The notes beneath the pieces were generated by a model. The model made no database searches. It was given only the letters and a program-made list of their open reading frames with translations, and had not been told where the DNA came from. From the NCBI GenBank assembly GCA_013150955.1, contig JAADJD010000034.1, positions 1 through 45,058 of the forward strand: a stretch of DNA of 45,058 nt. Reading direction: 5' to 3'. Shown here in pieces: positions 31,596 to 36,570 of the stretch (position 1 is its first letter; each line of letters begins with the position of its first letter). The DNA comes from Calditrichota bacterium (GTDB lineage: Bacteria; Calditrichota; Calditrichia; RBG-13-44-9; J042). A program made the position numbers and the translations under genes.

Positions 31596-32411
31596 ATGAA
31601 CTGGGATGATAAAGAAAAATGTGGATTGCCCGCGGATGAGGAAACGGAAGAAGCCGGTTGGATTGTTACCTTCAGCGATCTGATGAGTTTGCTGTTGACC
31701 TTTTTTATTCTGCTGTTTTCCTTTGCGTCCATCGAAGAACAGAAGTTTAAGGAATTGCTGGAATCGCTGCGAGATGCCTTTGGCGTGCAGCAAATTCCCG
31801 AAGCCGGTACCCGCGAGGGATTGGAAATGTTAAAGACGGATGCGGAGGTCAAACAGATTGCGGTGGATGAGCTGGGGGGATTGGTGCAGAAGGAAATGGA
31901 GGAAATCAAATCCCAGGTCGAAGAGTTTGTTTTGAAGAACAAGTTGCAGGGGATGGTGGAGGTGAAAACCGGAGATCGCGGAGCGGTGATTACCATTTCC
32001 GACGTGGTGATTTTTCCGGTGGGTGAAGCGGAATTTAATCCCGAAGCCTATCCCATTCTGGAAAAGATGGCCGAATTGTTAAAGCAGTTTCCCTACAAGG
32101 TGCGGGTAGAGGGGCATACGGACAACGTGCCCATTCGCACCGCGCGATATCCTTCGAACTGGGAACTGTCCACAGCACGCGCGGCCCGCATTGTGCGATA
32201 TTTTATTTCCAAGGGGATCGATCCCAATCGCTTGTCGGCCGAAGGATTTGCCCATTACCGTCCGGTGGCGGATAATGCCACCCCTGAGGGACGGGCGCGG
32301 AACCGGCGGGTGGAAATCGTTTATACCCGGGAGAGCATCATCGAGGGGATCAAGAAAAAATACGGCTTGCCGGAGGAGTTGAGCGAAACCGTTACCGGGG
32401 AAACCTCCTGA
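31596..32411 (+). CDS. motB: Flagellar motor stator protein MotB
   Basis: 271 residues. A short acidic cytoplasmic start is followed by one membrane helix with the essential ion-binding Asp28 (VTFSDLMSLLLTFFILLFSFAS). A plug/linker region (about 45-125) leads to an OmpA-like peptidoglycan-binding domain (about 130-250): VRVEGHTDNVPI, SNWELSTARAARIVRYF, RLSAEGFAHYRPVADN and ARNRRVEIVY. It anchors the stator to the wall. GGAGGA lies just before the ATG. The 3' side carries a structured RNA and a strong terminator that would end the HD-GYP-motA-motB transcript. Confidence 0.93.
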   Translation: MNWDDKEKCGLPADEETEEAGWIVTFSDLMSLLLTFFILLFSFASIEEQKFKELLESLRDAFGVQQIPEAGTREGLEMLKTDAEVKQIAVDELGGLVQKEMEEIKSQVEEFVLKNKLQGMVEVKTGDRGAVITISDVVIFPVGEAEFNPEAYPILEKMAELLKQFPYKVRVEGHTDNVPIRTARYPSNWELSTARAARIVRYFISKGIDPNRLSAEGFAHYRPVADNATPEGRARNRRVEIVYTRESIIEGIKKKYGLPEELSETVTGETS

Positions 32412-32499
32412 AGCGTGGGAAAACCCGCAGGCATGTGATGGGAATCACCCCGGGGAACCGGGTTTCCGCTATTTTGAAGATTAATGAAAATGAGAAAAT

Positions 32500-32618
32500 C
32501 AGAGGATTCAACCTCAGCCGTGTGGAAGTGGAGTCCCCGAGATTTTCCGACATCGGCTGAGGTCGATCCTCGACGATGTGACGGCGGTGGTTCGGGTTAC
32601 GGAATCACCGCCTTTTTT
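32500..32618 (+). ncRNA. Structured RNA candidate downstream of motB
   Basis: Three hairpins in a row end in a terminator. Hairpin 1 has CCTCAGCCG (32512-32520) paired perfectly with CGGCTGAGG (32554-32562) around a loop that can itself form GGAA/TTCC (32524-32527, 32545-32548). Hairpin 2 is GTCGA (32562-32566) with TCGAC (32570-32574). Hairpin 3 is the terminator. It does not match a riboswitch or RNA that I recognise and no gene follows on this strand. It could be an independent small RNA or a 3' UTR of the mot operon. A 72-codon open frame across it (32484-32702) has no family look. Confidence 0.5.
32583..32618 (+). terminator. Terminator of the HD-GYP-motA-motB operon / structured RNA
   Basis: GGCGGTGGTTC (32583-32593) pairs with GAATCACCGCC (32602-32612), 11 bp with one G-T pair and an eight-base loop, followed by six T. 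Confidence 0.85.
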
Positions 32619-32713
32619 CTTGCCACTCCGTTACCGGCTCGGAAACCGTTATCCCGGATGTCCAGGGCAATTCTTAGGCATTGCAAGGATACAATCCAAT
32701 AGTGCATTGTTTA

Positions 32714-33105
32714 AGTTGAACCCAAATTTTACATTCGCCTGCAAATGACACGAATGAACACGAATAAAAATAATCCCAGATTAAGCAATAGCCTACGAAT
32801 GACACGAATGAACACAAATGAAAATAATAAACCCAGATGATGTATTAGAACCACGAATGACACGAATTCACACCAACAAAAATAATAAAAGTGCACTTGA
32901 TTCTATCTGGACGAAAATGTTTTCCGGGATATATTCACTATTTTGTTGATATGATTCGAATTCATTCGTGTGATTCGTGGTTTAACGCATTATTTGGGTT
33001 AAAATACACTGGATTATTTCTGTATGAAAATGTGTTTCGAGGTTTATTCGCGATTTTGTAGATATTTTGGGGTTTCATTCGCGTGATTCGCGGTTTCATG
33101 AATTA
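32714..33105. repeat. Interspersed palindromic repeat, cluster 7
   Basis: Several partial left arms in tandem (GCCTGCAAATGACACGAATG, GCCTACGAATGACACGAATG, CCACGAATGACACGAATTC) followed by two right arms (ATTCATTCGTGTGATTCGTG with ATTATTTGGGTT, and ATTCGCGTGATTCGCGG). It is the largest cluster, in the convergent junction between the mot operon and rpoD. 32619-32713 shows nothing else. Confidence 0.85.
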
Positions 33106-33130
33106 CCGGATTGAAATTCGGATGGGCAAG

Positions 33131-35514: not shown

Positions 35515-35543
35515 TTGACAAAAATAATGCGGCATCCTATATT
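35515..35543 (+). promoter_or_regulatory. Strong promoter of the cold-shock gene
   Basis: Perfect TTGACA (35515-35520), 17-base spacer, TATATT (35538-35543). Transcription would start near 35550, giving a folded leader of about 100 bases. Confidence 0.75.
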
Positions 35544-35551
35544 TTTTTTAA

Positions 35552-35649
35552 CCTGTGGAAAGCACCTCTTCATTGGGCGGGAAATAAATCCACAGGGGTT
35601 CACAATGAAGAGGGCGAGGTGTTTAGTCTTTCTGGGAGGTTTTTGTTCT
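35552..35649 (+). promoter_or_regulatory. Structured 5' leader of the cold-shock gene (interlocking stems)
   Basis: CCTGTGGA (35552-35559) pairs perfectly with TCCACAGG (35589-35596). CCTCTTCATTG (35565-35575) pairs perfectly with CAATGAAGAGG (35603-35613). The second 5' arm lies inside the loop of the first stem, so both together form a pseudoknot. CACCTC (35563-35568) can instead pair with GAGGTG (35616-35621). The ribosome-binding site GGGAGG (35634-35639) lies just downstream. Cold-shock mRNAs such as E. coli cspA use temperature-dependent leader folds; a similar thermoswitch is inferred here. Confidence 0.6.
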
Positions 35650-35859
35650 ATGCCAACGGGTAAGGTAAAGTGGTTCAATGACAACAAAGGATGGGGCTTC
35701 ATTGAACCCGACGAAGGTGGCGATGATGTGTTTGTTCACTATTCGGCCATTCAGGAGGAAGGGTACAAAACGTTGCGTGAAGGTCAGCGGGTGGAGTATG
35801 AATTGCGCCCTGGTAAAGACGGAAAATACCAGGCGGCCAATGTTGTTAAAATTGAGTGA
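35650..35859 (+). CDS. csp: Cold-shock domain protein (CspA family)
   Basis: 69 residues, the standard size. Starting [11 protein letters not shown], it has RNP-1 (KGWGFI) and RNP-2 (VFVHYSAI), the two nucleic-acid-binding strands, and ends [11 protein letters not shown]. It binds single-stranded RNA and helps translation or transcription in the cold or generally. GGGAGG lies 10 bases before the ATG. In-frame ATGs at 35605 and 35509 would give N-terminal extensions not known in the family and cross the folded leader, so ATG 35650 is preferred. It is monocistronic with its own strong promoter and terminator. Confidence 0.95.
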
Positions 35860-35878: not shown

Positions 35879-35924
35879 CAGGCAAAGGCCTCAGGGAATC
35901 GAGAGGTCTTTGCCTGATTTTTTT
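35879..35924 (+). terminator. Terminator of the cold-shock gene
   Basis: CAGGCAAAG (35879-35887) pairs with CTTTGCCTG (35908-35916), with further inner CCTC/GAGAGG pairs, followed by seven T. Confidence 0.85.
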
Positions 35925-36061
35925 CATCCCCCATTTGCTGTTCAACTTTTCCTCCTTCCGAAAAATCACGAAACTACCAATTGGGGCATGAAATCACCTT
36001 AACCAGTTCCTGTTCAGTGACTCCACCAAATAACCGGGAACCGGATTGTTTCGATGGTTGA

Positions 36062-36355
36062 TTTAACCCGCGATAAACTCAGATTATGCAGTAGACCACG
36101 AATTACACGAATGAACACAAATAAAATTAATAAAATAGATTGAATTGTACATGGATGAAAACATGTTCTCATAATTTATTCGCTTTTTTGTGGATGTATT
36201 TTGGTTTCATTCGTGAGATTCGCGGTTAAATGAACCCAAACAATGCGTTAAACTGCGAATCATGTGAATGAATTCGAAAAAATCAACAAAATAGCGAATA
36301 TATCCGGGAAAACATTTTCATCCAGATAGAATCCAGTGCATTTTATTATTTTTAC
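36062..36355. repeat. Interspersed palindromic repeat, cluster 8, left part
   Basis: A forward unit (about 36062-36233, ACCACGAATTACACGAATGA to TTCGTGAGATTCGCGG) is followed head-to-head by a reverse unit (from AACCCAAACAATGCGTTA, through GTGAATGAATTCG and CATTTTCATCCAGATAG) that stops at 36355, where the hairpin element begins. Confidence 0.85.
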
Positions 36356-36570
36356 CCGTTGTGCTAATTCAGGATAAAGCAGGTATTTAGAAAAACCGTT
36401 AAAACGGTTAAGAATCAATCGGTTACCTCATCTATTCTCCTGGCTGAAGCCAGGAGTTAATCGACATTCTCATTCATTAACACCCAGATTTATCTGGGTG
36501 GACAACTCCTAAAGTAACAATAATTTACAGAACCGTTTCAACGGTTTGGGTTGTCTAATTCGCACAACGG
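36356..36570. mobile_element. 215 bp MITE-like element with four hairpins and 9 bp inverted ends
   Basis: The ends CCGTTGTGC (36356-36364) and GCACAACGG (36562-36570) are perfect inverted repeats. Inside are four perfect hairpins: AACCGTT/AACGGTT (36394-36409), CTCCTGGCT/AGCCAGGAG (36437-36456), CACCCAGA/TCTGGGTG (36481-36500) and AACCGTT/AACGGTT (36531-36546). There is no open frame of note. It lies between two partial copies of the interspersed repeat, which share a direct repeat around GCGAATATATCCGGG. It resembles non-autonomous palindromic elements; no matching transposase is present and no target duplication is clear. Confidence 0.55.

Follow-up and report, generated by a model that had tools for sequence, protein, structure and literature searches.

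A conserved H-type pseudoknot at the predicted 5′ end of a cold-shock mRNA in one order of Calditrichota

To our knowledge, most experimentally supported structured leaders of cold-shock (csp) genes have been described in proteobacterial and firmicute models. At 37 °C the mRNA of Escherichia coli cspA folds into one form and at 10 °C into another that excludes the first (PMC4166951); the 37 °C form hides the start codon and the Shine-Dalgarno sequence (PMC6386945, PMC9947658). Did control of cold shock by mRNA structure also arise independently, with a different fold? The leader of a csp gene from a Calditrichota bacterium provides a compact system for this question, being short, restricted to one lineage and covarying in both of its crossing stems. 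The gene lies on contig JAADJD010000034.1 of the 4.07 Mb assembly GCA_013150955.1; positions 1–45,058 of the forward strand of this contig were analysed and are called the window here. On comparative sequence evidence, its leader is a genuine conserved H-type pseudoknot with both helices backed by covariation. How widely does this structure occur, do its two helices form together or in turn, and does it have anything to do with temperature?

The product of this canonical csp gene (Table 1) scores 96.7 bits against Pfam PF00313 (cut-off 27) and thus belongs to that family, and the solved chains nearest to it are cold-shock proteins. From the promoter, transcription is predicted to start at about 35550, 2–3 bases upstream of the first stem of the leader. 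A terminator-like hairpin follows csp, so that the gene looks monocistronic; the 10-nt loop of this hairpin lies beyond the range of the scan that gave the promoter. In the other genomes, the CapA-like neighbour and csp lie on different contigs or far apart. Since this neighbour does not travel with csp, the leader is tied to the gene and not to the neighbourhood. Diverged AT-rich repeats of the ttcattcgtg / cacgaatgaacac type occupy 36060–36360 and 32700–33110 of the window. With 112 genomic matches, spread over both strands, the former represents an abundant interspersed family with inverted halves, to which the latter, judged by eye, seems to belong.

Between the promoter and the ribosome-binding site, the first-pass annotation had placed two perfect, interlocking stems, and both are indeed found there, with 8/8 and 11/11 pairs. 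They cross on one RNA strand, which makes an H-type pseudoknot whose three loops measure 5, 13 and 6 nt. Could such an arrangement be a product of chance? When the leader was shuffled 2000 times with its dinucleotides kept, no pseudoknot of the observed geometry and strength arose, and none of 1000 shuffles scored under a loose geometry matched the leader. Nested folding of the leader alone gave an uninformative z of −0.16, a pseudoknot being impossible to represent in a nested fold. A scan of both strands of the 45 kb found one other locus of similar score (window about 32497–32565), so the single sequence alone is not decisive; the comparison of six genomes is.

The region 32497–32620, between a MotB/OmpA-like ORF (ending at 32411) and a convergent sigma-factor gene, may be a structured RNA in its own right: a hairpin (GAGGATTCAACCTCAGCCG / CGGCTGAGGTCGATCCTC) and a crossing GAAAATC/GATTTTC pairing are followed by a strong hairpin terminator and its run of T. 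This candidate has no credible Rfam match. Past the same sigma gene in another genome (G002, locus L283), AGAGGATTCAACCTCAGCC is kept, with a matching 3′ arm and a terminator.

Table 1. Positions in the window of the csp gene, its expression signals and the parts of the leader pseudoknot
Feature	Position	Strand	Remarks
Promoter, TTGACA and TATATT	35515–35520 and 35538–35543	+	17-nt spacer; promoter scan, 11/12 match
Stem 1 (stem A of the first-pass annotation), 5′ arm CCTGTGGA	35552–35559	+	Predicted mRNA 5′ end; exact 8/8 pairing
Loop 1, AAGCA	35560–35564	+	5 nt; 4–5 nt in 6/6 orthologues
Stem 2 (stem B of the first-pass annotation), 5′ arm CCTCTTCATTG	35565–35575	+	Exact 11/11 pairing
Loop 2, GGCGGGAAATAAA	35576–35588	+	13 nt; 13–18 nt across orthologues; 3′ end A-rich in 5/6
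Stem 1, 3′ arm TCCACAGG	35589–35596	+	Pairs with 35552–35559, 8 bp
Loop 3, GGTTCA	35597–35602	+	6 nt; 5–8 nt across orthologues
Stem 2, 3′ arm CAATGAAGAGG	35603–35613	+	Pairs with 35565–35575, 11 bp
GAGGTG, partner of CACCTC (35563–35568)	35616–35621	+	Third pairing, 6/6; not conserved, probably incidental
Shine-Dalgarno GGGAGG	35634–35639	+	Read from sequence; outside the pseudoknot
csp, 69-aa cold-shock-domain protein	35650–35859	+	Start ATG at 35650; KGWGFI variant of RNP1
Probable intrinsic terminator, CAGGCAAAGGCCTC / GAGGTCTTTGCCTG, then T run	35879–35924	+	14-bp hairpin; read from sequence

The genomes compared numbered 16 for the order and 40 for the class, the same 40 standing for the phylum. 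A csp orthologue group stands out clearly among them, with profile scores of 148–155 bits against at most 89 for every other csp gene. Its members are found in six genomes of one order, three from one family (G000, the assembly of the window, G002 and G003) and three from a second (G005, G007 and G011). Searches of genome and viral contigs with a profile of the csp alignment gave no closer orthologue among the matches listed, which were other csp genes.

Both crossing stems are kept in all six orthologous leaders, on which the structural case rests. Besides the arms of G000 given in Table 1, stem 1 and stem 2 read, respectively, CTGCGGA/TCCGCAG and CCTCTTCGTCC/GGATGAAGAGG in G003, CTTGTGGA/TCCACAAG and TCTCTCCATC/GATGGGGAGG in G007, TCTCATGGAT/ATCCGTGAGA and CCTCTCCAAT/ATTGGAGAGG in G005, CTTACGGG/TCCGTAAG and CCTCTTCATC/GGTGGAGAGG in G011, and CTTGCGG/CCGCAGG and, with a bulge, GGTAGC(C)TCGTTGA/TTAACGAGCTGCC in G002. 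The layout is kept as well: stem 1 (7–10 bp) begins 6–8 nt past the −10 box of a TTGACA-17-TA(T/A)A(T/A)T promoter in every leader, stem 2 measures 10–13 bp, loops 1, 2 and 3 measure 4–5, 13–18 and 5–8 nt, and stem 2 ends 29–36 nt before the ATG, with the Shine-Dalgarno sequence 13–21 nt downstream of this stem and outside the pseudoknot (6/6). A sister species of the same genus (G001, 98% complete) has different genes around its copy of the downstream peptidase gene and lacks this csp, indicating that the element is dispensable within the lineage.

Is the pairing kept where the sequence changes? Initial MAFFT alignments lost the structural register and were superseded by an alignment of five leaders padded with N in the loops to keep the arms in register, G002 being compared by hand; as the padding itself holds the arms in register, this alignment is biased towards the structure. 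Of its 95 pair cells, 95.8% hold standard pairs, and 8 of the 19 pairs have changed on both sides (4/8 in stem 1 and 4/11 in stem 2). No shuffle in 500 reached the observed pairing and covariation. This control is blind to relatedness and has only five rows, so the weight is carried by controls with slid partners, in which pairing fell to 37.5–57.5%, and by G002, where stem 2 has been wholly replaced by an unrelated 13-bp helix with pairing kept. Both stems thus come through the covariation check that the first-pass annotation had put forward for homologous leaders.

The same stretch could in principle act as inverted repeats in DNA, such as operators, or be translated, as an N-terminal extension of Csp or an upstream ORF. 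In G000 and G003 an ATG within stem 2 (window 35605) is in frame with csp, with no stop in between, and would add 15 codons in the window. It was rejected as the csp start, because the frame is not kept across orthologues: G005 has a stop in it, G007 a frame shift, and stem 2 of G002 and of G005 contains no ATG. The predicted transcript start, moreover, precedes stem 1, and the G-U pairs in the stems, together with the interlocking of unequal repeats, fit RNA rather than DNA. Function as DNA or as coding sequence can therefore hardly account for the conservation.

How far does the pseudoknot extend beyond this gene? Of 187 csp leaders, 181 are non-orthologous, and not one of these carries a pseudoknot that passes a filter set on this geometry and strength, which G002 (bulge) and G007 (extended stem 1) also fail to pass; two weak non-orthologous leaders reach 27.5 points against 42–48 for intact orthologues. 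The other csp genes of the orthologue-bearing genomes are likewise without it. Two covariance models were used, R1 including stem 2 and R2 including stem 1. R1 gives its five training leaders 55–58 bits, and its search of 385 genomes found no credible further copy, the next match having 25.8 bits; matches of 22–26 bits over these genomes were set aside as chance level, and a class-level match of 23.1 bits (L245) was rejected as apparently lying inside a coding region. G002, which was not in the training set, was missed by R1 and received 9.3 bits (E 0.54) from R2, so divergent copies elsewhere could escape the search. At the level of sequence comparison, we take the presence of the pseudoknot, its geometry, its two-stem covariation and its restriction to this csp orthologue group as established.

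Other csp genes seem to carry conserved leaders of other kinds. Outside the phylum, the csp genes at two loci (L018 in G097 and L030 in G040) share a second candidate structured leader in the roughly 100 nt before the gene, with CATCGA near its 5′ end followed by a hairpin of GACGG... type; this may be a further csp leader RNA that is not yet listed. Upstream of csp at L023, L025, L031 and L032 there are unrelated conserved leader blocks (GTACATGTTTTTTCGC... and ...CGATTTTTTTT), which suggest that these bacteria have csp leaders of at least two kinds.

Does the leader switch? The first-pass annotation had proposed a thermoswitch, with a third pairing, CACCTC/GAGGTG, competing with stem 2. In a strict bistable switch, stem 2 would alternate either with stem 1 or with a pairing further downstream, one state masking and the other freeing the Shine-Dalgarno sequence. 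The cspA mRNA of E. coli does switch (PMC4166951, PMC9947658), and the best tail partner of the pyrimidine-rich 5′ arm of stem 2 (CCTC) overlaps the Shine-Dalgarno sequence in four of the six leaders. However, no such downstream pairing beats shuffles (p 0.17–0.46), and stem 2 is much the longer in each case. The third pairing does exist in the window (6/6) but does not exceed chance (p about 0.08), and the perfect 6-mer is absent from the other five leaders. As the arms of stems 1 and 2 share no nucleotides, nothing forces them to alternate, and joint formation is the simplest explanation of why both are kept. Nested folding of the six leaders gave no common trend of Shine-Dalgarno accessibility with temperature, and the ribosome-binding site lies outside the conserved fold, which is therefore not that of an RNA thermometer masking the Shine-Dalgarno sequence. 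The thermoswitch originally proposed is thus not supported, and we consider a strict bistable switch of any of these forms improbable.

The knot was also compared with the most stable nested fold that its stretch of RNA can form, using a Dirks-Pierce-like initiation penalty whose value was set by us and treated as entropic, so that the result is a rough estimate. At 10–50 °C the knot beats the nested fold in five of the six leaders, and its lead is greater at 10 °C; G002 is the exception, its nested fold being predicted to be the more stable. These modelled energies, together with the non-overlapping arms, favour the view that both helices are formed at the same time.

What would such a knot do? 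The first 65 or so nucleotides of the csp mRNA, made from what looks like a strong plain promoter, would fold into one H-type pseudoknot, with stem 1 at the extreme 5′ end. The whole would border the ribosome-binding region on its upstream side and leave the Shine-Dalgarno sequence free. By analogy with E. coli cspA, it is most likely a 5′-end element that acts in cis, presumably after transcription, and sets the stability or the translation of csp mRNA. By burying the 5′ end of the mRNA and holding the leader compact, the knot may protect the mRNA while its start site stays open for 30S loading. The protective effect would be expected to rise as the temperature falls, because the predicted advantage of the knot over other folds grows in the cold. 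Csp itself, which belongs to a family of RNA chaperones, may feed back on the knot. A cis-acting 5′-end pseudoknot that protects csp mRNA and keeps its start site open, more so in the cold, is the explanation that we prefer, with moderate confidence. Against it count the tightness of a loop 1 of 4–5 nt that spans a stem of 10–11 bp, the more stable nested fold predicted for G002, the absence of this csp from the sister species and the small number of leaders, six in all.

How much of this depends on temperature? A response of the leader to temperature is plausible. In a bolder version, the knot would be a cold sensor that tightens on cooling and so acts directly to lengthen the life of csp mRNA or to increase 30S loading; cold induction would then use a fold unrelated to the two-state switch of E. 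coli cspA and evolved separately in this lineage. This is a tentative proposal that we think may well be wrong. The knot might instead be independent of temperature, a 5′ stabiliser or a stand-by element for the ribosome that only sets a constant high level of csp mRNA. This would agree with the position of stem 1 at the predicted 5′ end (6/6) and with a Shine-Dalgarno sequence lying outside the knot at a near-constant distance. No computed result separates this version from the temperature-tuned one, but the lack of the knot in the other csp genes of the same genomes speaks against it, and we regard it as possible rather than probable.

Alternatively, the knot might be bound by Csp, by a ribosomal protein or by a small molecule, and would then be an autoregulatory site or a ligand riboswitch. 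Compact conserved pseudoknots often bind something, and loop 2 is A-rich where it meets the 3′ arm of stem 1 in five of the six leaders. However, few unpaired bases are invariant and no Rfam riboswitch matches. Since the loops vary, and loop 2 of G002 is unrelated and replaced along with stem 2, the leader does not look like a metabolite riboswitch, and binding of any of these partners seems to us unlikely to be what the knot is for.

If, as we prefer, the leader is a protective 5′-end pseudoknot, is it a known one? The leader alone has no match in Rfam 15 at gathering or relaxed thresholds; the cspA family RF01766 is matched only when the coding sequence is included, and then at 39.2 bits, below its gathering threshold of 78. 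A search of the open literature found no csp leader described as having a pseudoknot laid out in this way. What we describe is apparently new, a cold-shock leader that is structured like others but has its own fold. Even if it had no response to temperature, it would still define a conserved leader RNA that is new and absent from Rfam.

Like the E. coli cspA thermosensor (RF01766), this is a structured 5′ leader of a cspA-family gene, transcribed from a standard promoter and expected to be regulated post-transcriptionally; unlike in E. coli, where the Shine-Dalgarno sequence and the start codon are buried at 37 °C, the Shine-Dalgarno sequence here lies outside the conserved fold. The leader is also shorter, at a predicted length of about 100 nt against the 159 nt of the E. 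coli cspA leader, the cold form of which has been drawn with a pseudoknot. With the ROSE and fourU thermometers it shares a structured leader on a temperature-stress gene, but those elements mask the Shine-Dalgarno sequence at low temperature, whereas the conserved fold here excludes it. Among translationally controlled mRNAs, the α-operon mRNA bound by S4 (cited in PMC7858274) is similar in having a leader pseudoknot adjoining the start site; the gene is a different one, a protein ligand of the present knot would be hypothetical, and this knot lies upstream of the ribosome-binding site. Finally, the element has the two crossing helices and three loops of H-type pseudoknots in general, but its loop 2 is 13–18 nt long, compared with the usual 0–1 nt.
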